64,000 bases of DNA from Myxococcota bacterium (GTDB lineage Bacteria > Myxococcota > B64-G9): positions 186,001-250,000 of the forward strand of contig JAKLGA010000001.1 in NCBI GenBank assembly GCA_022710975.1. The letters run 5' to 3'. The position numbers were made by a program, and so were the translations under genes. Positions within the stretch are counted from its first letter, which is position 1; each line of letters begins with the position of its first letter. The notes under the pieces are model-generated. The model saw nothing but the letters and a program-made list of their open reading frames with translations, searched no databases and had not been told where the DNA came from. Shown in pieces: positions 2,504 to 14,299 of the stretch.

Positions 2504-2540
2504 AAAACCTCAATCGCCCACAGGGTGATTGAGGTTTTTT
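2504..2540 (+). terminator. Rho-independent terminator of tRNA-Gly
   Basis: AAAACCTCAATC pairs with GATTGAGGTTTT, and the stem continues inward through CGCCC/GGGTG to a 3-base loop (ACA at 2520-2522). It ends in a run of eight T. This is one of the clearest terminators in the window and lies 16 bases before the tamB start codon. Confidence 0.92.
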
Positions 2541-2555
2541 TTGTCGGGTGGGCTC

Positions 2556-5500
2556 GTGCGAAGCAAGCTCCGCATCTTCATCTCGATCCCGGTCCTGAGC
2601 ATCGTGCTGCTCCTCGTGGCGGCGGTCATCTTCCTCAAGAGCGACTACGCCGGCGAGCTGGCCTGCGGCATGCTGCGGGAGCGCGCGGGTGGCCAGCTCG
2701 GCGCCGAGGTGGAGATCACCCGCTGCGCCATCGAGCTGCTGCCGCCTGGTCTCGAGGCCAGCGAGGTCCACCTGGGCGATGGCCACGGCGGGCGGCTGCT
2801 GCAGGCCGCGGCGGTCCGCGTGGAGCTGGACTCCCTGTCGCTGCTGGTCGGGCGCCTGGCCATCGACCGCGTGGTGCTGCGCGAGCCGCGGGTCGTGCTC
2901 GTGCTGCGCGACGGCCGGCTGGCGAACCTGCCCTCGCCCCCACCGGCCGCAGGCGGCGAGGTCCCGGCGGCCCTGGCGCTCGAGAGGATCGAGATCGAAC
3001 ACGGGCAGGTGGATGTCCTGCTCGAGGGCTTCGGCATGCTCCACGCGCAGGAGGTGGCCGCGGTCGCGGAGGAGGGCGAGGAGGACGAGGCCGGCGCGTC
3101 CACCCGCGAGGTGAGCCTGGAGTTCGGCGGGGGCAGCCTGGACCTGGCCGGCGGGCTGGGGACCTCTCTCGCGCTCGGGCGCTTCCAGGCCGCGGCCGTG
3201 GTCGACTCGGCTGGCGTCGATCTGAAACGGCTGGCGCTGAAGGTGCACGAGCTCCACCTGGCGGCCCAGGGACGCGTGGACTTCCTCGCCGAGGGAGTGC
3301 GCCCCCGGCTCGGGCTGGCCATCCGCGGGTCCATGAGCCTGCTGAACCTGCTGCTGCCGATCATCCCGCCCATGCAGGGCCAGGTCGTGGTGAGCGCCGA
3401 CACGGATCTGGGCCCGAACGGCCTGGAGGCGCGCGGGGCGCTGGACGCCAAGGGCTACGGGGTGATGACCGCGACCCAGATCGACGTGACCACCCGCTTC
3501 CGGGTGGATCTGCGCGGGCTCAAGCTCGAGGGACTGCGGGCCACGAGCCCGGGCGGGACCGTGAGCGGCGAGGCGCACCTCGACTTCGACGAGAAGCTGG
3601 GCTTCGGTGGGAAGCTGACCCTCGAGCACGCCGAGCTGATCCCCTCGTTGGGCATGGGCGGGATCGACTTCCAGGTCATCGACCTCCACGGGCAGGGGGG
3701 CCTGGAGTTCAAGGGCCGGTTCATCGCCAAGCAGGGCGCCTGGGTGCGCGTCCAGGTGGACCTCGAGACCCGGCGCCTGGTGGTCCAGGCCGGCCCCGAC
3801 CTGGCGGCGGTGGTCCTGTCCGGGGGGCGGCTGCAGACCGAGGCGGTCTTCGACGGCCGGCAGGTGCGGTTCCCCGCGATCCGCTTCGAGAAGGGGGACA
3901 GCCTGCTGGAGGGCCAGGGCCGCATCGGCTTCCACGACGGCGCGGTCCAGGCCGCCTTGCACGCCGACCGCCTGCAGCTCGCCGACCTGGCGCCCATCGC
4001 CGGGTTGCGCGTGGCAGGAGAGGGGAACGCCCAGATCCAGGTGGCGGGCGCCTTCCCCCGGCCCCACCTCGACGCGCGGCTGGGCTTCCAGGGCGTGGTC
4101 ATCGAGGAGCGCAGCGTCGGGGCCGTGAGCGGGCACCTCATGCTGGACGGCGCCGACATGCAGCTCGAGCCGCTGGCGGTGTCCAACCGGGAGGGCACCC
4201 TGCAGGCCAGGGGACGCCTGGGCCTGCTGCCGCCCTACCCGGTGGACGCAGGCCTGGAGCTGGTGGCCGTACCGCTCGAGGTGCTCGTCTCGGCCGTGCG
4301 CGCGGGCCGGGTCCCCGAGGGGCTGCGCGGCAAGGTCGGCGGACGGGCGCAGGCCCGCGGCTCCTTGCTCCAGCCGGAGCTCGATTTCCAGGTGGCCTTC
4401 GCCGACCTGCAGGCGGGCGGGCTGGTGTTCGAGGAGGGCGGCGTCCTGGGCCGGCTCGCGCGGGGCGTCTGGCAGCTCGAGACGTTCGAGGCTCGCATGG
4501 GCAGCGGCTGGCTGTTCGCCAAGGGCAGCCTGAGCCAGGAGGCCGGCATCGATCTGGTGGGCTACTCCACCGGCCTGAAGGCCGACTCCTTCCGCACCCT
4601 GCTCCCCGCCGAGGCGGCCGTCGCGTTCCGCCTGGATCTCAACGCCAGCCTGCGCGGTCCGCTGCGCTCGCCTGCCTTCGAGGGCTGGGCCAAGCTGTAC
4701 GACACGCGCCTGGCGGGCGTGGAGCTGCCATCCTCGTTCGTGTCCGCGCGGGCCACGGCCGAGCGCGTGGACGTCACCGGGCGCTTCCTGGGGGATGCCG
4801 CCCACCTCGAGGGGCTGGCCGAGCTGACCACCGACCTGCCCTTCCGCGCCGAGCTTGGCTTCGCCACCGAGCTCGGCGGGAGGTTCCTGCCGCCCGCGCC
4901 GGACCAGCGTCCGGGCAAGCTGCAGCTCGCGGGCCGGGTGCAGGCACGCGGCCTGATGCTGCAGCCCGCGGGCATCGAGGCGGAGCTGTCCTTCGAGCAG
5001 GCGCTGCTGCGCTGGGGCAAGTTCCAGCTCCAGAACCGGGACGGGGTGCTGGCCACGCTGCGCCAGGGTCGGCTCCTGCTGCGCCGCTGCGGCCTGGTGG
5101 GCAGCGGCACCGATCTGGCGCTGGAGGGGCACCTCGATCCGCTCTCCGGACCACGCCTGGAGCTGTCGGGCGCTCTGGACGCCGGCCTGGCTGGACTGCT
5201 GCTCCCCTGGGTCGAGAGCGCGGTGGGCAAGGCCCACCTGCGGCTGGCGCTGGACGGCGCCTGGGCCGCGCCGCGGCTGACGGGCCGGCTGGACTTCGAG
5301 CTGGAGCGACTGCGCCTGAGCTTCCTGCCGCTGGATCTCGAGGCCAGCCGGGGGCACGTGCTGCTGCGGCCGGGCAGGCTCGAGGTGCCGCCCCTGAGCG
5401 GGCGGGCGGGCGGCGGCGAGTTCAGCCTGAGCGGCAGCCTCGGGCTGGGGGCCGCGGGCCTGGACAACCTGGCGCTCTCGGCCGAGCTGAGGCGGGTGCG

Positions 5501-6506
5501 GCTCGAGCTGTCGCACGACCTGTGGGGGGTGGGCAGCGGGGAGCTGCGTCTGCGCCGGGCCCGGGACGGGCTGCTGGAGCTCTCCGGCCAGGTGCGGATG
5601 CAGGAGGCGGTCTTCCGCGAGCACATCGCCCTGGTGCCCCTGGACCAGGGCGCCTTCCGCAGGCGGAGGGCGGCCCCGCGCACCTACGATCGCGCCCGCG
5701 AGGTCCTGTCCTTCGACGTGGGCCTGCGTTTCCCCGAGCGCCTGCGGGTCGATTACAACCTGGACCTGGTGGCGTTCCGGGCGCAGCTGGCCGGCAACCT
5801 GCAGCTCGTGGGCACCAACGAGCGCCTGGGGCTGCTGGGGGAGCTGGACGCCCTGGACGGGCAGGTCTCCTACCTGAGCAAGGACTTCGAGGTCTCCACC
5901 ACGCGCATCCAGTTCATCGATCCGCTCGCCATCCAGCCGCGCCTGGAGATCCGCGCCAGCCGGCCCGAGGTGGTGGACCGCGGCGACGAGGGCAAGGTCG
6001 CCTACCAGATCGAGCTGGGGTTGCTCGGCGAGGGGGACGACGTCCGCGTCAGCCTGACCAGCAACCCGTCCCTGGACGAGCGAGACATCATCACCCTGCT
6101 GTCGCTGGGGGTCACCAGCCGGGATCTCGAGACCTTCAAGGGCCAGGATCTGGTGGGCCTGGGCGGCGAGATCGTGCTGCGTTCGTTCAGGCTCGACGAG
6201 CGGCTGAGCCAGCTGTTCCCGTTCCCGCCCGACCTCATCCAGCCCAAGTACTTCAGGCTCCGCAGCCGGCTTTCGAAGAAGACGGCCTCGACCGCCCCGC
6301 GGCTCGAGGCCGGGGTGAAGCTCAAGGTGCTCAGCGATTCACTCGATCTGGACTACAGCCGCTCGCTGTACGACGAGACGGACCAGAGCCTGGACCTGAG
6401 CTACCGGCTGTCCCGGGGGGTGTCCACCCGTCTGGCCTGGGAGGATTCGGGCGACACGAACTTCGGCGATCTCGGCCTCGATCTGCGCTTCAACTGGGAG
6501 TGGTGA
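2556..6506 (+). CDS. tamB: Translocation and assembly module protein TamB
   Basis: A 1316-residue protein with one N-terminal membrane helix (residues about 7-28), then a long beta-rich body of the AsmA/TamB type and a C-terminal DUF490 domain, seen in the stretch around IELGLLGEGDDVRVSLTSNP and DIITLLSLGVTSRD. TamB spans the periplasm from the inner membrane and works with TamA to insert outer-membrane proteins or move lipids. GTG 2556 is chosen because the in-frame TTG at 2529 lies inside the terminator hairpin; a purine-rich GGGTGGG sits at 2546-2552. tamA starts one base after its stop, the usual tamB-tamA pairing although here in the order B-A. Length is in the normal range. Confidence 0.9.
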   Translation: MRSKLRIFISIPVLSIVLLLVAAVIFLKSDYAGELACGMLRERAGGQLGAEVEITRCAIELLPPGLEASEVHLGDGHGGRLLQAAAVRVELDSLSLLVGRLAIDRVVLREPRVVLVLRDGRLANLPSPPPAAGGEVPAALALERIEIEHGQVDVLLEGFGMLHAQEVAAVAEEGEEDEAGASTREVSLEFGGGSLDLAGGLGTSLALGRFQAAAVVDSAGVDLKRLALKVHELHLAAQGRVDFLAEGVRPRLGLAIRGSMSLLNLLLPIIPPMQGQVVVSADTDLGPNGLEARGALDAKGYGVMTATQIDVTTRFRVDLRGLKLEGLRATSPGGTVSGEAHLDFDEKLGFGGKLTLEHAELIPSLGMGGIDFQVIDLHGQGGLEFKGRFIAKQGAWVRVQVDLETRRLVVQAGPDLAAVVLSGGRLQTEAVFDGRQVRFPAIRFEKGDSLLEGQGRIGFHDGAVQAALHADRLQLADLAPIAGLRVAGEGNAQIQVAGAFPRPHLDARLGFQGVVIEERSVGAVSGHLMLDGADMQLEPLAVSNREGTLQARGRLGLLPPYPVDAGLELVAVPLEVLVSAVRAGRVPEGLRGKVGGRAQARGSLLQPELDFQVAFADLQAGGLVFEEGGVLGRLARGVWQLETFEARMGSGWLFAKGSLSQEAGIDLVGYSTGLKADSFRTLLPAEAAVAFRLDLNASLRGPLRSPAFEGWAKLYDTRLAGVELPSSFVSARATAERVDVTGRFLGDAAHLEGLAELTTDLPFRAELGFATELGGRFLPPAPDQRPGKLQLAGRVQARGLMLQPAGIEAELSFEQALLRWGKFQLQNRDGVLATLRQGRLLLRRCGLVGSGTDLALEGHLDPLSGPRLELSGALDAGLAGLLLPWVESAVGKAHLRLALDGAWAAPRLTGRLDFELERLRLSFLPLDLEASRGHVLLRPGRLEVPPLSGRAGGGEFSLSGSLGLGAAGLDNLALSAELRRVRLELSHDLWGVGSGELRLRRARDGLLELSGQVRMQEAVFREHIALVPLDQGAFRRRRAAPRTYDRAREVLSFDVGLRFPERLRVDYNLDLVAFRAQLAGNLQLVGTNERLGLLGELDALDGQVSYLSKDFEVSTTRIQFIDPLAIQPRLEIRASRPEVVDRGDEGKVAYQIELGLLGEGDDVRVSLTSNPSLDERDIITLLSLGVTSRDLETFKGQDLVGLGGEIVLRSFRLDERLSQLFPFPPDLIQPKYFRLRSRLSKKTASTAPRLEAGVKLKVLSDSLDLDYSRSLYDETDQSLDLSYRLSRGVSTRLAWEDSGDTNFGDLGLDLRFNWEW

Positions 6507-6507
6507 G

Positions 6508-9500
6508 GTGACGGCGAGACGGACCCCAGCCTGGATGGGTGCCTGGCCAGCGGCAGTCGCGCTGCTGGCGACGGTCCTCGCCAGCGCGGGGCCCGCGCGG
6601 GCCGGCGAACCCGCCGACTTCGTCGGCCGGCCGGTGGCCGCGGTGCGCGTGGAGGGCGGCGAGCTGCCCGAGGCGGAGGCGCTCGGCTACCTGGATGTGC
6701 GACCCGGGGAGCGGCTGAGCCTGGCCGCCGTGCGCCGCTCGCTCAAGCTGCTGTACCAGCTGGGCCTGTTCGGGCAGGTGCGGGCCACGGCCCGGCCGGC
6801 GGCGGACGGCGAGGGGGTCGAGGTCACCTTCCAGCTCCAGCCCAAGGTGCGGGTGCGCAAGCTCTCGGTCGTCGGCGCCGTGGCCATCCCGGAGGACGAT
6901 CTGCTGCGCCTGAGCCGGCTGCAGCGGGGAGAGGAGTACGACCACTGGAAGCTGCAGGCCTCGGCGGCCGACATGCTCGCGCTGGCGCGCCGTCGCGGTT
7001 ACCGGGCGGCGCGCATCGTCTCCACCGCCGAGCAGGACGGGGAGCGCGACGTGCGGGTCAGCTTCTTCGTCCAGGAGGGGGAGCCCACCCGGGTCGCGCG
7101 CGTGGAGCTGCGCGGTGAGACGGGCCTGTCCGCGGCCCGCCTGCTGGGGCAGCTGGCGCTCGGGCCGGGGGATGTCCTGGATGTCGAGGCGGTCGAGGCG
7201 GCCCGCGATCGCCTGCTCGCCTACCTGCGCCGCGCGGGGTTCCTCACCGCCCGGGTGGAGGTGCCGCGCTTGCGCGGCGAGCGCAGCGCGAGCGCCGAGG
7301 TCGTCGTGCTGGAGGTGGCCGCCGGGCCGAGGGTCAGCCTGGCCGTCGAGGGGGCCACCCGTTTCCGCGCGCGGCGGCTGCTGGAGGAGGTGGACCTGGA
7401 GGAGGGCTTCGGCCTGGCGGCCTTCCAGCTGCGCGACCAGGCCGAGCGCATCGCGGAGTTCTACCGCCGCCACGGCCACGCCCGGGTGCAGGTCGTGCCG
7501 CGGCTGGCGCGGGACGAGGCCCGGCGCGAGGCGCGGGTGACCTTCCTGGTGGAGGAGGGGCCCCGGGTGGAGGTCGCGCAGGTCACCTTCGACGGCAACC
7601 ACGCCTTCTCCGACGGCGAGCTGCGGGCGTACATCGACGACGCCATGCTGGAGGCCATCCCGCAGCCGCTGGCCGCTCAGCCCGTGGACCCCGGCGACCT
7701 GGACAACCTGGGGGGTGGCCACCCGCCGACGCAGCCTGCCCGCCGGACCGACCGGCCGCAGGGCTTCTGGTTCGAGCTGCGGCCGGAGACCATCTTCCTG
7801 CGCGAGCCCTACCTGGCGGGCCTGCGCGCCATCGCCGATCTGTACCGCAGCCAGGGCTACCTCGAGGCCGAGGTGGGACCGCCGCTGCTGTCCTACGACC
7901 CCGTGGACGGTCGGCTGTTCGTGGACGTGCCCGTGCGCGAGGGGCCCCAGACCCGGGTCGAGTCGGTGACCTTCGAGGGCAACCAGACCGTGGCCAGCCA
8001 GGTCTTGCTCGGCGTCACCGAGGCCGCGGCCCGCCCGGTGCGGCCGGGCATGCCCCTGGACGGGCTGGCCATCGAGGAGCTGCGCCGCGTGCTGCAGAAG
8101 CACTACACCGCGCGCGGCTTCGCCTTCTGCCAGGTGGAGCCCGAGCTGGTGTTCTCGGAGGATCGCAGCCTGGCGGAGGTGCGGTACCGCTTCCAGGAGG
8201 GACCCCAGGTGCGGGTGGGCCGGGTGCTGGTGCAGGGCAACCTGGTCACCGAGCGGACGGTCTTCGACCACCTGCTGTCCGTCGCCCCGGGGGCGCTGTT
8301 CACCCCAGCGCGCGTGCAGGCCAGCCGGGAGGATCTGCTGGATCTGGGGGTGTTCTCCAGCGCCGAGCTCAAGCTGCTCGATCCGGATGAGCCCGCGGGA
8401 ATCAAGGACGTCGCGGTGCAGGTGCGCGAGCGCGTGTCCAACGCCATGACCATCAGCCCGGGCCTGTCCTCCGGCGAGGGCGTGCGCCTGGCGCTGGAGT
8501 ACACCCACCGCAACCTGGCCGGCTACGCGATCGAGTCGGTCAACCGCGCCAAGGTCAACTACCAGGTGTTCTACCCCCTGCTCGGCGACGCGCTGGCGGA
8601 TCGGCTGCGCGAGCTCAGCTTCTTCGAGGGGCTGGAGTGGTCGCTGATCTCCGGCCTGCACTGGCCGAAGATGTGGTGGGTCGGACGCAACGTGACCGGC
8701 CGCCTGGATCTGCTGGGCCTGCACGAGATCAACCCCTCCTACGAGCTGACCAAGGTCTCGTTCACCCCGGGGCTGGACTTCAAGCTGCTCGAGGACCTGT
8801 CCCTGAACCTGGCGATGGAGCTGGAGTACAACAGCCTGGTGTGCCCCTTCGGCGCCGACTCGCCCTGCGGCGGCGCCACCGGCGAGGCCTGGCTGCGCTA
8901 CGACGAGGGGTCGCTGCTGCTGCTGGCGCTGCGCCCGGAGGTCTCCTGGGACCGCCGTGACAACCCCTTCAACCCGCGCGAGGGCTGGTTCGTCAGCCTG
9001 CGCACGGAGCTGGCCAAGAGCCTGCAGGCCGCGGGCCAGGTCTTCTACCTCAAGCTCGACGGCCAGCTGTCGGGCTACATCCCGCTGGGCCGGCTGGTGA
9101 CGCTGGCCCTGCTGCTGCGGGCCGGGGTGGTCGTCCACCTGCTCGATGACTCGCGCACTCCGTCCCACAAGCTGTTCTACCTGGGGGGGCGCAACAGCGT
9201 GCGCGGCTTCCCCGAGGATCAGCTCATCCCCGCCGACCTCGGCGAGCCGTGCATCGAGGGCACCACCCTGGACGGCGCGCGGACGTGCGTGTCTCCAGGC
9301 GGCAATGCGTTCCTGCTGCTCAAGGGGGAGCTGCGCTTCCCCCTGTGGCCGGGCCGGCTGGACGGGGCCGTGTTCCTGGACGCGGGCAACCTGTGGCAGG
9401 AGCTCAAGAGCTTCCGGCCCTACCTGCTGCGCCCCGCCGCGGGTTTCGGGCTGCGGCTGGTGACGCCGCTCGGGCCGGTGGCCTTCGATCTGGGCGTGAA

Positions 9501-9567
9501 CCTGTTGCCGGACGAGGCGCGGGCCGAGGCGCCCTGGAGCTTCCACTTCAACGTGGGTGTCTTCTGA
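6508..9567 (+). CDS. tamA: Omp85-family outer-membrane assembly protein TamA
   Basis: A 1019-residue BamA/TamA-superfamily protein. It has a signal peptide with a hydrophobic core (AVALLATVLASAGPARAGEP), several POTRA domains over roughly residues 30-600 and a C-terminal 16-strand barrel. The barrel carries the hallmark loop-6 segment GGRNSVRGF (around residue 895) and the LDAGNLW strand near residue 955. Length exceeds E. coli TamA (about 577), because of extra POTRA units and a Pro-rich linker near residues 390-415. GTG 6508 overlaps nothing and follows the tamB stop by one base, so the two are translationally coupled. It inserts outer-membrane proteins with TamB; a second BamA is also possible, but the tamB neighbour favours TamA. 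Confidence 0.9.
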   Translation: MTARRTPAWMGAWPAAVALLATVLASAGPARAGEPADFVGRPVAAVRVEGGELPEAEALGYLDVRPGERLSLAAVRRSLKLLYQLGLFGQVRATARPAADGEGVEVTFQLQPKVRVRKLSVVGAVAIPEDDLLRLSRLQRGEEYDHWKLQASAADMLALARRRGYRAARIVSTAEQDGERDVRVSFFVQEGEPTRVARVELRGETGLSAARLLGQLALGPGDVLDVEAVEAARDRLLAYLRRAGFLTARVEVPRLRGERSASAEVVVLEVAAGPRVSLAVEGATRFRARRLLEEVDLEEGFGLAAFQLRDQAERIAEFYRRHGHARVQVVPRLARDEARREARVTFLVEEGPRVEVAQVTFDGNHAFSDGELRAYIDDAMLEAIPQPLAAQPVDPGDLDNLGGGHPPTQPARRTDRPQGFWFELRPETIFLREPYLAGLRAIADLYRSQGYLEAEVGPPLLSYDPVDGRLFVDVPVREGPQTRVESVTFEGNQTVASQVLLGVTEAAARPVRPGMPLDGLAIEELRRVLQKHYTARGFAFCQVEPELVFSEDRSLAEVRYRFQEGPQVRVGRVLVQGNLVTERTVFDHLLSVAPGALFTPARVQASREDLLDLGVFSSAELKLLDPDEPAGIKDVAVQVRERVSNAMTISPGLSSGEGVRLALEYTHRNLAGYAIESVNRAKVNYQVFYPLLGDALADRLRELSFFEGLEWSLISGLHWPKMWWVGRNVTGRLDLLGLHEINPSYELTKVSFTPGLDFKLLEDLSLNLAMELEYNSLVCPFGADSPCGGATGEAWLRYDEGSLLLLALRPEVSWDRRDNPFNPREGWFVSLRTELAKSLQAAGQVFYLKLDGQLSGYIPLGRLVTLALLLRAGVVVHLLDDSRTPSHKLFYLGGRNSVRGFPEDQLIPADLGEPCIEGTTLDGARTCVSPGGNAFLLLKGELRFPLWPGRLDGAVFLDAGNLWQELKSFRPYLLRPAAGFGLRLVTPLGPVAFDLGVNLLPDEARAEAPWSFHFNVGVF

Positions 9568-9990: not shown

Positions 9991-10356
9991 TCAGCCCGGG
10001 CGCTGCTCGACGTTGCGCGAGACGATCTGCTTGATCAACCGCATCGACTCGTCGTCGAAGTTCACGAACTCGACGCCCATGCCGGCCACCGCGCCCTCGC
10101 GGCCGGGCGGGTTGACCCGCACGACCTTGCCCAGGCCTTCGATGAGCTTGGCCCCGTCGCGCAGGTAGAACTGGAGGTAGATCAGGCTGCCCTCCTCGCG
10201 GGGCTCGTCGGTGCGGATGAACATGCCGCCCTCGGAGATGTCCACCGAGTACTCGGCCAGGAAATCGGCCAGGGTGTCGAACCGGAACTGGATGAGGAGC
10301 GACAGGGGCACCCGGGGGTACCTGCGGCGCTCGTCCTTGCCCTGCTTGTGTGCCAT
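9991..10356 (-). CDS. PilZ-domain protein (myxobacterial TIGR02266-like)
   Basis: A 121-residue protein with the two c-di-GMP contact motifs of PilZ: RRRYPRVP (residues about 10-17, the RxxxR motif) and DISEGGMFI (near residue 41, the D/NxSxxG motif). It is a single-domain form very like the paralogous PilZ domains common in myxobacteria. It probably binds c-di-GMP or acts in motility or polarity control. ATG at 10356 has a GAGGAG sequence just upstream on the minus strand. It is convergent with the response regulator and separated from the metallophosphatase gene by 75 bases. Confidence 0.88.
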   Translation of the reverse strand: MAHKQGKDERRRYPRVPLSLLIQFRFDTLADFLAEYSVDISEGGMFIRTDEPREEGSLIYLQFYLRDGAKLIEGLGKVVRVNPPGREGAVAGMGVEFVNFDDESMRLIKQIVSRNVEQRPG

Positions 10357-10431: not shown

Positions 10432-11496
10432 TCAGAGGCCGGCCTCCTGGGCCAGCTGCCTGGCCACCGCGTCCCGCAGCTCCGGATCCTCGGGCTCGTC
10501 CTCTGGCAGGGGCCGCAGCACGGCGCGAAAGCGGCTCCGCCCGCCCAGCTCCTCGAGCCGCGCCCGCAGCCCGGCGGCCTCGGCGGGCGGCGCCACGGAC
10601 AGCTTGCGCCCCAGGTCGTCGAGCTCCAGCTCGTCGGCGAACCTCCCCGGCGGCGTGCGCAGGTCGAGCCGGAGCAGGCCCAGGTACTCGCCCTTCTTGT
10701 AGGGCTGCAGCAGGTAGGTGTCCCCGACCCGCCGCGGGCGCAGGATCATGCGGTCGTCGCCGGCGCCGAGGATGAAGTGGATGCCCTCCACCTCGGCGGC
10801 CAGCGCGGCGTCGGCCTCGATGCCCAGGTTGCTCAGGCACACCACCAGCTCCACGCGCCCGCGCAGCGCCGCCAGCTCGCGCCGGACGGCCTCCGCAGGC
10901 GCCTCCACCCGCGCGCCCTGCACCTGCCCGCCGACCAGGCCGAGCAACCCCACCCGCACCCCCCCCACCTCGCGCACCAGGTGCCGGGCCACGGGCAGCT
11001 CTCCCCCATCCGCGGCCGCCAGGTTGGAGGCCAGCAGCGGGAGCCCGAGAGCGCGGGCGACCTCCAGCGCCGCGGCGCCCTGGCGCAGGTCGCTGGCCGA
11101 GGGCGCCCAGGCGTCCAGGCGGAGCCGCGCATGCGCCGCGAGCACGAAGTCGGCCCGGGAGCGCAGCCGGACGGGGTGGTCGTAGGGGCTGCGCAGGCGC
11201 GGGTACAGCAGATCGCCCGCGTCCAGCCACAGGACCGGCGTCCGCTCCTGTCGGAGCCCCTCGATGAACCGCGCGCGCCTGGCCAGACCGCCAAGCCGTC
11301 CCGAGGCTCACCCGCAGGGCTCGAGCTCGCCCTGCACGTTGGCCTGGTAGGCCAGCACGAGCTGCCGGCCCTCGGCCGCGGGGAGCTCCGCGGGCGGGGG
11401 CCGGGGCCCAGGGCCCGGCGCTCCGGCGCAGCCGAGGGTCAGCAGGGCCAGGCCGGCCACCAGGCGACAGCGGGCGAGGCGGGTCGCGGCGTTCAT
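10432..11496 (-). CDS. Predicted selenocysteine-containing metallophosphatase lipoprotein (UGA read as Sec63)
   Basis: The frame contains an in-frame UGA at 11310-11308 and otherwise stays open for 354 residues on both sides. Read through, the UGA falls in the motif LEPCG-U-ASGRLGGLARRA, which matches the conserved EPCGC...GGLARRA segment of secreted 5'-nucleotidase-like metallophosphatases with Sec in place of the second Cys. The N-terminus is a lipoprotein signal (lipobox LTLGC, Cys23). Beyond the UGA come a WLDAGDLL metal-site segment and family-like C-terminal blocks (LGAGDDRM, PYKKGEYLGLLRLDL). The ATG overlaps the radA stop (ATGA), so the two are coupled. A SECIS-like hairpin follows the UGA. 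A pseudogene is the alternative, but the open frame, motif and hairpin make it unlikely. Confidence 0.85.
11278..11310 (-). promoter_or_regulatory. UGA (Sec) codon and bacterial SECIS-like hairpin
   Basis: After the UGA (11310-11308) comes a 12-base spacer, then CTTGGC (11295-11290), the loop GGTCTG (11289-11284) and GCCAGG (11283-11278). The six-base stem includes one G-T pair and can be lengthened by one G-C pair. The loop contains GGUCU, which is also in the apical loop of the E. coli fdhF SECIS element, and it starts 19 bases after the UGA as in fdhF. This is where SelB would bind. Confidence 0.8.
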
Positions 11497-12866
11497 CGGT
11501 CCTCCAGCGCGAGCTCGGCCAGCCTGTCCAGGCTGGCGATGCCGGTGGGCTCCAGCCCGCGCGGGGCGTGGAGCTGCTCCAGGCAGCCGGCGGGCAGCAG
11601 CACCCGCGCGTAGCCCAGGCGCAGCGCCTCCTGCGCGCGCGCCTCGGCGGCGGGCACGGCGCGAACCTCGCCCGCCAGGCCCACCTCGCCGAACACGGCC
11701 AGCCGGGGGTGGATGGGGCGGTCGGCCTGCGAGCTGAGGATGGCGGCGCAGATGGCGAGATCGGCCGCGGGCTCGTCGAGCTCCAGCCCGCCGGCCACGT
11801 TGAGGAACAGGTCGCAGCCCGCCAGCTGGAGACCCGCCCGGCGCTCGAGCACCGCGGCCAGCAGCGCCACGCGGTTCGGATCGCAGCCCCAGGCCGTGCG
11901 TCGGGGCTGGGCGTAGACCGAGCTGGACACCAGGGCCTGCACCTCCACCAGCAGCGGCCGCGTGCCGCGCAGCATGGCCAGGACCGCCGAGCCGCAGGCC
12001 CGCGCCGGGCGGTCCTGGAGGAAGGCCCGCGAGGGGTTGTCCACGACCACCAGCCCCTGGCCGGTCATCTCGAACACGCCGATCTCGGACACCGGGCCGA
12101 AGCGATTCTTGTGGGCCCGCACCACCCGCAGGCTGCGGCCGGGATCCGCCTCGAAGTACAGCACCGTGTCCACCATGTGCTCGAGCATGCGCGGCCCGGC
12201 CAGCGTGCCCTCCTTGGTCACCTGGCCGATCAGGAAGATCGGCTGGCCGCGCGCCCGGGCCACCTCGGCCAGGCGGGCCGCCGACTCGCGCACCTGCCCC
12301 ACGCTGCCGGGCGCCGAGGGGATGTCGGGGCAGCGCAGGGTCTGCACGGAGTCGAACACGACCGCCCGGAAGCTGCCCGCCTGCAGCGCGCCTGCCAGGG
12401 CCTCCACGTCCGTCTCGGCCAGGAGCTGCAGGCCGTCCAGCGGCAGGCCCAGGCGCACCGCGCGGGCGCGCACCTGCTCCAGGCTCTCCTCGCCGGTGGC
12501 GTACAGCACGGGCGCCTCGGGCCGCGCCATGCCCGCGCACACCTGCAGCATCAGCGTCGACTTGCCGATGCCCGGGTCGCCTCCGAGCAGCACGCTGCTG
12601 CCCGGCACCAGCCCGCCGCCGAGCACCCGGTCGAGCTCGCCGAGCCCGGTGGTGAAGCGCGCCTCCCGGAGCGTCTGCACCTCCAGCGCGCGCACCGGCC
12701 GGGCCGCCGGCCGCGCGCCCGGCCGCGCGCCCGGCCGGGCCGAGGCGGCCGCCGGCGCGACCTCCACGAGCGTGTTCCACTCGCCGCAGCCCTGGCACTG
12801 GCCGAGCCACTTGAGCTCCTGGCGGCCGCAGGCGGTGCAGCGGAAGCTGGTCTTCGTCCTGGCCAT
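11493..12866 (-). CDS. radA: DNA repair protein RadA (Sms)
   Basis: A 457-residue protein with all RadA parts: an N-terminal C4 zinc finger (CTACG and CQGCG, residues about 10-29), a RecA-like ATPase with Walker A LGGDPGIGKST (near residue 94), the RadA-specific KNRFG motif (near residue 253) and a C-terminal Lon-like domain. RadA helps process recombination intermediates and drives branch migration. Between zinc finger and ATPase is an Arg-Pro-Gly-Ala-rich linker encoded by short tandem repeats. The start at 12866 is the only one that keeps the zinc finger. Its stop overlaps the start of the metallophosphatase gene. Confidence 0.97.
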   Translation of the reverse strand: MARTKTSFRCTACGRQELKWLGQCQGCGEWNTLVEVAPAAASARPGARPGARPAARPVRALEVQTLREARFTTGLGELDRVLGGGLVPGSSVLLGGDPGIGKSTLMLQVCAGMARPEAPVLYATGEESLEQVRARAVRLGLPLDGLQLLAETDVEALAGALQAGSFRAVVFDSVQTLRCPDIPSAPGSVGQVRESAARLAEVARARGQPIFLIGQVTKEGTLAGPRMLEHMVDTVLYFEADPGRSLRVVRAHKNRFGPVSEIGVFEMTGQGLVVVDNPSRAFLQDRPARACGSAVLAMLRGTRPLLVEVQALVSSSVYAQPRRTAWGCDPNRVALLAAVLERRAGLQLAGCDLFLNVAGGLELDEPAADLAICAAILSSQADRPIHPRLAVFGEVGLAGEVRAVPAAEARAQEALRLGYARVLLPAGCLEQLHAPRGLEPTGIASLDRLAELALEDR

Positions 12867-12931: not shown

Positions 12932-14299
12932 ATGACCGATCCCTCCGCGCCCGCCCCGCTGGCCACCCAGGCGCTGCTGCTCGAGCAGGGCCCCGGACTC
13001 ACCGAGCAGCGCTGCAGCCTGGTCGAGGTGCGCGGCCCGGAGCCGGGCAAGGTCTGCCCGCTGGGCGGCCGCCGGGTGGTGGTGGGCAAGAGCCCCGAGG
13101 CCGACCTGGTGGTGGCCGATCTCACCGTGAGCCGCAACCACTTCGAGGTGCTGCCCGAGGGCGGGCGGTACCTGGTGCGCGATCTCGGCAGCACCAACGG
13201 GACCAGCCTGGACGGGGCCCGCGTGCGCGAGGCCTACCTGCGGCCCGGGGCGCTCATCCAGGCCGGCGAGGTGGTCTTCCGCTTCCAGACCGAGGCCGAG
13301 GCGGTGCGCGTGGAGCCCTCGGCGCGAGAGTCCTTCGGCGGCCTGCTCGGCCGCTCGGTACGCATGCGCGAGATCTTCGCCCTGCTGGAGCGGGTGGCCG
13401 CGAGCGACGCCACCGTGCTGCTGCTGGGGCCAACCGGCACCGGCAAGGGCGCCGCGGCCGCTGCGCTGCACTCCCAGGGCGCGCGGGCCGGCGGGCCGTT
13501 CGTGGTGGTGGACTGCGGGGCGGTGGCCCGCAACCTGATCGAGAGCGAGCTGTTCGGGCACGTCAAGGGCGCCTTCACCGGGGCGGTCGCCCAGCGGCGC
13601 GGGGCCCTGGAGGAGAGCCGGGGCGGCACGCTCTTCCTGGACGAGCTGGACGACCTGCCGCTCGACCTGCAGCCCAAGCTCCTGCGGGCGATCGAGGAGC
13701 GCGTGTTCGTGCGCCTGGGCGCGAACCAGGCCATGCCCTTCGACGCCCGCGTGGTGGGCGCCAGCAAGAAGGACCTGCGCCTCGAGGTGGCCGCCGGCCG
13801 CTTCCGCGAGGATCTGTTCTACCGCCTGAGCGTGGTGGCCGTGCGGCTGCCCTCGCTGCGCGAGCGGCCCGAGGACATCCCGCTGCTGTTCGAGCACTTC
13901 CGCCAGGGCCGCGGCCCGGCCTTCGCCGAGCTCGACGAGGCCACCCGCCGGCGCTGGCTGGAGCACGCCTGGCCGGGCAACGTGCGCGAGCTCAGGAACG
14001 CCGTGGAGCGGAGCCTGGCGCTCTCGGGCGACGGGCTGGCGAGCGGCCTGCTGCTATTCCCCGAGGCGGCCCGCGCGGGCACGGGCCTGCAGGCGGACTA
14101 CCACCTGCCCTTCAAGGAGGCCAAGGAGCGGCTGCTGGAGGCCTTCGAGCGGGAGTACCTCGAGCGGCTGCTGGCGCGCGCGAGCGGCGGCATCGCGGGC
14201 GCCGCCCGCGAGGCCGGCATCGATCGCAAGCACCTCTACTCCCTGCTGGAGAAGCACGGGCTGTGGGCCAGCGGCAAGCGCCCGGCGGGACAGGATTGA
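12932..14299 (+). CDS. FHA-domain sigma54 enhancer-binding regulator
   Basis: 455 residues in three parts: an N-terminal FHA domain (about 25-120, with [18 protein letters not shown] and [11 protein letters not shown]), a central AAA+ sigma54-activation domain (about 135-370) with Walker A GPTGTGKG and the sigma54-contact loop GAFTGA near residue 213, and a C-terminal Fis-type helix-turn-helix (about 410-445). The Walker B region is LFLDELDDL rather than the usual DEIGEL. FHA domains bind phosphothreonine, so activity is likely tied to a Ser/Thr kinase; this arrangement is common in myxobacteria. It is divergent from radA and followed by lipoprotein genes. Confidence 0.93.

Follow-up and report, generated by a model that had tools for sequence, protein, structure and literature searches.

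The minus strand of the analysed window (the whole stretch of 64,000 nucleotides from a Myxococcota genome) encodes an UshA-like protein in which an in-frame UGA codon is almost certainly translated as selenocysteine (Sec) at residue 63. This judgement is so firm because the corresponding column holds Sec or Cys in the relatives, the UGA form is associated with tRNA-Sec, and a hairpin downstream of the codon covaries in the Sec forms. The explanation as a whole, that of an exported selenoprotein of UshA fold with SECIS-directed Sec63 and a presumed Cys/Sec redox role, is regarded as highly probable. The features it draws on are the following.

10432..11496, minus strand: gene of the UshA-like selenoprotein (354 aa including Sec63); matches NF041198 (E=9e-49); 5'-nucleotidase/SoxB fold
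11308..11310, minus strand: in-frame UGA read as Sec in C61-G62-U63; Sec/Cys swap among relatives, tRNA-Sec in 42/42 UGA genomes
11278..11295, minus strand: SECIS hairpin; covariation and pairing in Sec forms, absent in Cys forms; rare codons
11428..11496, minus strand: putative signal peptide ending at Cys23, a candidate site of lipid attachment that does not vary among the four closest members; otherwise read from the sequence
11493..12866, minus strand: radA, assigned by Pfam; ATGA overlap, coupled upstream; precedes the homologue in four further genomes as well

The interrupted gene and its neighbourhood

On the minus strand, the gene starts with the ATG at 11496, is interrupted by the in-frame TGA at 11310-11308 and ends with the TGA at 10434-10432. 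Both halves belong to one frame of 354 residues, and the UGA is its sole break. The codon is found in the motif EPCG-U-ASGRLGGLARRA (context LEPCGUASGRLGGLARRA) and occupies the place of the second Cys of a CGC motif, giving C61-G62-U63. The ATG overlaps the stop codon of radA. In all these points, the phase of the two halves, the position within the CGC motif and the ATGA coupling to radA, the initial annotation is borne out. Gene finders would cut such a gene in two at the UGA. The same annotation had described the product as a secreted lipoprotein. A lipoprotein signal is plausible in view of the invariant Cys23, although the lipobox, TLGC, is imperfect.

Three same-family relatives have a homologue, and in each of them radA immediately precedes it, as it does in a genome of another family (G075). 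In two of the loci compared, L083 and L084, there is an overlap or hardly any gap between both genes. This radA-linked short branch is conserved in four or more genera belonging to a single family of myxobacterial type. radA is a DNA-repair gene, and a functional tie of the UshA-like protein to it is putative. Four other genomes of the same family (G002, G003, G005 and G008) contain tRNA-Sec and no homologue was found in them, so the UshA-like gene is probably dispensable.

Several other genes were noted nearby. A PilZ-domain protein is encoded downstream of the UshA-like gene (9991-10356, minus strand), and a sigma-54 activator with an FHA domain is divergent from radA (12932-14299, plus strand). 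Further away on the plus strand the gene of a TamB-like protein (2529-6506) precedes that of an Omp85 protein with multiple POTRA domains (6508-9567); together they form a TamA/TamB-type pair.

Selenocysteine insertion

The host genome (7.13 Mb in 29 contigs, 98.6% complete) was checked for the Sec machinery, and all parts looked for are present: a tRNA-Sec (76.8 bits, cut-off 47; anticodon loop CUUCAAA), SelA (512.7 bits), SelD (379.9 bits) and SelB, which is above its cut-off with 290.9 bits for the main piece and 314.7 together with a neighbouring one. The gene of the host SelD (L018, G000:C7:36890-37807) also contains an in-frame UGA, located at the active site (CASAAG-U-AAKLGPG). SelD is therefore probably a selenoprotein, and the host would use Sec elsewhere too.

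The comparison covered 97 whole genomes, which are the host genome, eight of the same family and the rest of the same phylum. A homologue was detected in 84 of them, and in 42 of the 97 it carries exactly one UGA. In the homologues inspected, the column of the UGA holds Sec or Cys, and the only sense codons found there are those for Cys. UGA at this column recurs in eight family-level lineages. All 42 genomes with the UGA form have a tRNA-Sec, compared to 19 of the 55 others (Fisher p = 6e-13, a value that overstates the independence of genomes which are kin to each other). When the Sec or Cys state was mapped on a tree of 59 rows, seven changes were counted, at least five of which are forced by well-supported branches, so there has been repeated exchange between Sec and Cys. 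Two Cys forms, L029 (G090) and L039 (G087), are nested among the Sec forms of family f8, and no tRNA-Sec was found in either of these two genomes. The loop GGUCUG of their f8 Sec neighbours is changed to GGCUUG in L029 and to GGGCUG in L039. A variant motif, PCS-U with the loop GGACUG, was seen in G023 (L031:1552-1554).

The hairpin begins 12 bases after the UGA, as had been described, and reads 5'-CUUGGC GGUCUG GCCAGG-3' with a 6-bp stem (11295-11290/11283-11278) and a six-base loop (11289-11284), which we take to resemble the loop GGUCU of E. coli fdhF. In 23 distinct Sec sequences, which largely belong to one clade (f8) and thus represent nearer eight than 23 independent lineages, pairing of the stem amounts to 99.3% (shuffled mean 86.3); double-change cells number 19 against 5.6 in shuffled data, and the covariation score is 0.458 against 0.196. 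None of 500 shuffles reached these values, and sliding the stem gave far lower ones throughout. The variants found in the Sec forms are CUUGGC/GCCAGG, UCUGGC/GCCAGA, CUGGGC/GCCCGG and ACGGGC/GCCCGU. The Cys forms do not keep the stem (56.5% paired in 18 sequences, no better than shuffles). The codon usage agrees with this picture: GGT serves as the second Gly codon in 11 of 13 chosen rows with Sec vs 3 of 28 with Cys (p = 7e-6), and the hairpin contains one each of the rare codons CTT (1/328 Leu), GGT (9/226 Gly) and AGG (7/240 Arg), as counted in four genes of the window including the UshA-like gene itself. The single-sequence fold of the hairpin region is no more stable than shuffles (z = -0.17), and an Rfam scan of the window returned only a tRNA-Gly and no SECIS family. 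At the level of sequence comparison, the covariation, the rare codons clustered in the hairpin and the Sec/Cys swap are more than chance.

Two other readings of the UGA were considered. The codon could be a true or artefactual stop in a pseudogene or a misread gene, and under translation table 11 the open reading frame is indeed interrupted. However, the UGA is kept in 42 of the 97 genomes and only together with tRNA-Sec, the hairpin covaries, and the frame shows no further break. Pseudogene and sequencing error are ruled out by these comparative data, above all by the recurrence in eight family-level lineages, and their probability is practically nil. It is chemically possible that near-cognate suppression inserts another amino acid at this place, yet the column knows only Cys as sense codon, and the SECIS-type hairpin and the association with tRNA-Sec favour Sec, which makes such suppression very improbable. 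The selenoprotein reading proposed in the initial annotation is hence strongly supported by the machinery, the Cys/Sec column and the spread of the UGA. We propose that SelB and tRNA-Sec would decode codon 63 as Sec, directed by the in-frame hairpin downstream.

Fold, metal ligands and putative chemistry

The AlphaFold2 model (pLDDT 82.9) matches CD73, bacterial 5'-nucleotidases, UshA and SoxB in the PDB, with 5'-nucleotidases and SoxB on top. A Pfam scan of the protein gave no match. The N-terminal fold is shared with the 5'-nucleotidases E. coli UshA and CD73 (TM-score about 0.6 by query length). These enzymes comprise about 500-550 residues in contrast to 354 here, so that only their N-terminal part is matched, and most of their metal ligands are replaced. 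SoxB thiosulfohydrolase (TIGR04486) shares its superfamily and its fold with the protein (Foldseek E about 3e-15), but the match of 48 bits is far under the cut-off of 550. SoxB hydrolyses its substrate in a metal-dependent manner and is not known to have a CGU motif in this position.

Alignments of the protein with the Thermus 5'-nucleotidase 2z1a and with its own relatives revealed the extent of the ligand loss. HTNDTHAH is changed to YQANVQGE, GNHE to a Ser/Ala stretch, LSHLG to LSNLG and GGHSH to GAGDD. Of the motifs that hold metal ligands (DxH, D, N, H, HxH/HxQ), LDAGD alone is retained with its D (D95). The replaced positions, which we take to be Asp41, His43, Asn116, His217, His252 and Gln254 in the numbering of E. 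coli UshA, are largely replaced in three close relatives as well. In the Cys forms of Bdellovibrionota, NDxxG, THQG and one GAHxQ/GGHxQ stretch are mostly retained. As judged from these alignments, the loss is strongest in the radA-linked short branch. Since the classical ligands are mostly replaced, phosphatase activity is doubtful. The initial annotation of a metallophosphatase thus holds for the UshA/CD73/SoxB fold and is probably wrong for the chemistry.

It could be argued that the Sec protein is still a metal-dependent phosphoesterase or a thiosulfohydrolase-like enzyme, in which Cys61 and Sec63 serve as replacement ligands. The protein folds like 5'-nucleotidases and SoxB, the CGU loop would adjoin the site of the DxH ligands and D95 is retained. 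However, with six ligand positions replaced, few ligands are left for a dinuclear site, and we consider such an enzyme less likely than not. A redox instead of a hydrolytic chemistry of the Cys-Gly-Sec pair is suggested, tentatively, as the better description. According to this redox reading a protein that is exported, probably anchored by a lipid and built on the N-terminal fold of UshA/5'-nucleotidases would carry Cys61-Gly62-Sec63 in the loop that bears the DxH ligands in classical enzymes (a loop with pLDDT < 50 in the model). The metallophosphatase function would be lost, and the Cys/Sec pair would act as selenenylsulfide/selenol at the membrane or in the periplasm, possibly together with another protein as its partner in electron transfer.

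Relation to known UshA-like selenoproteins

The supposition that the protein represents a new selenoprotein family is not borne out. The GOS survey of 2008 already reported 76 CxU selenoproteins as 'COG0737, UshA-like', together with 92 Cys homologues (PMC2398784). UshA-like selenoproteins are also listed in a review from 2022 (PMC9312934), and one from 2026 gives them with the models NF041198 and NF049981 (PMC13188914). A literature search for selenoproteins of Myxococcota or Polyangia, which was thin on subscription journals, found nothing relevant.

The protein matches NF041198, the equivalog model 'UshA-like (seleno)protein', with 166.4 bits at model positions 17-272 of 519. It shares the CxU/CxC motif that this model requires at the same place of the UshA-type N-terminal domain and the context EPCG[UC]..GGLAR. 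In contrast to the NF041198 (PCGU) proteins it stays below the curated cut-off of 275, lacks the C-terminal half of the model, has lost more metal ligands and is coupled to radA. Three close relatives are also under this cut-off (173-210 bits). Many relatives have a cytochrome c554/c7-type C-terminal half (for example L088), which is missing in the protein from the window. L028 (1450-2796) encodes a UGA-containing UshA-like protein that adjoins radA and retains a cytochrome c554-type C-terminal half; it is possibly an intermediate architecture. Its SECIS loop is GGCUUC, not GGUCUG. NF049981, 'family 2', also describes a short UshA-like protein and is matched at positions 1-222 of 262. However, the score of 67.1 bits is below the cut-off of 140, and the motif is CxU in the window and CxxU in family 2 (PMC13188914).

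What looks new is the short branch: radA-coupled, poor in ligands, devoid of a cytochrome-bearing C-terminal half and scoring under the cut-off of NF041198. It may form a distinct subfamily, in which a nucleotidase fold lost its dinuclear metal site, became a redox protein with a Cys-Gly-Sec pair and is coupled translationally to radA, a proposal that we make with considerable reservation. If true, such a subfamily would escape the present public models. UGA-split UshA-like genes are common in the phylum and mostly under the NCBIfam cut-off, and are therefore probably mis-annotated. The family provides a clean comparative case, in which the exchange of Sec and Cys tracks the presence and absence of tRNA-Sec together with a covarying SECIS, and the loss of ligands makes the function of UshA-like selenoproteins directly testable.
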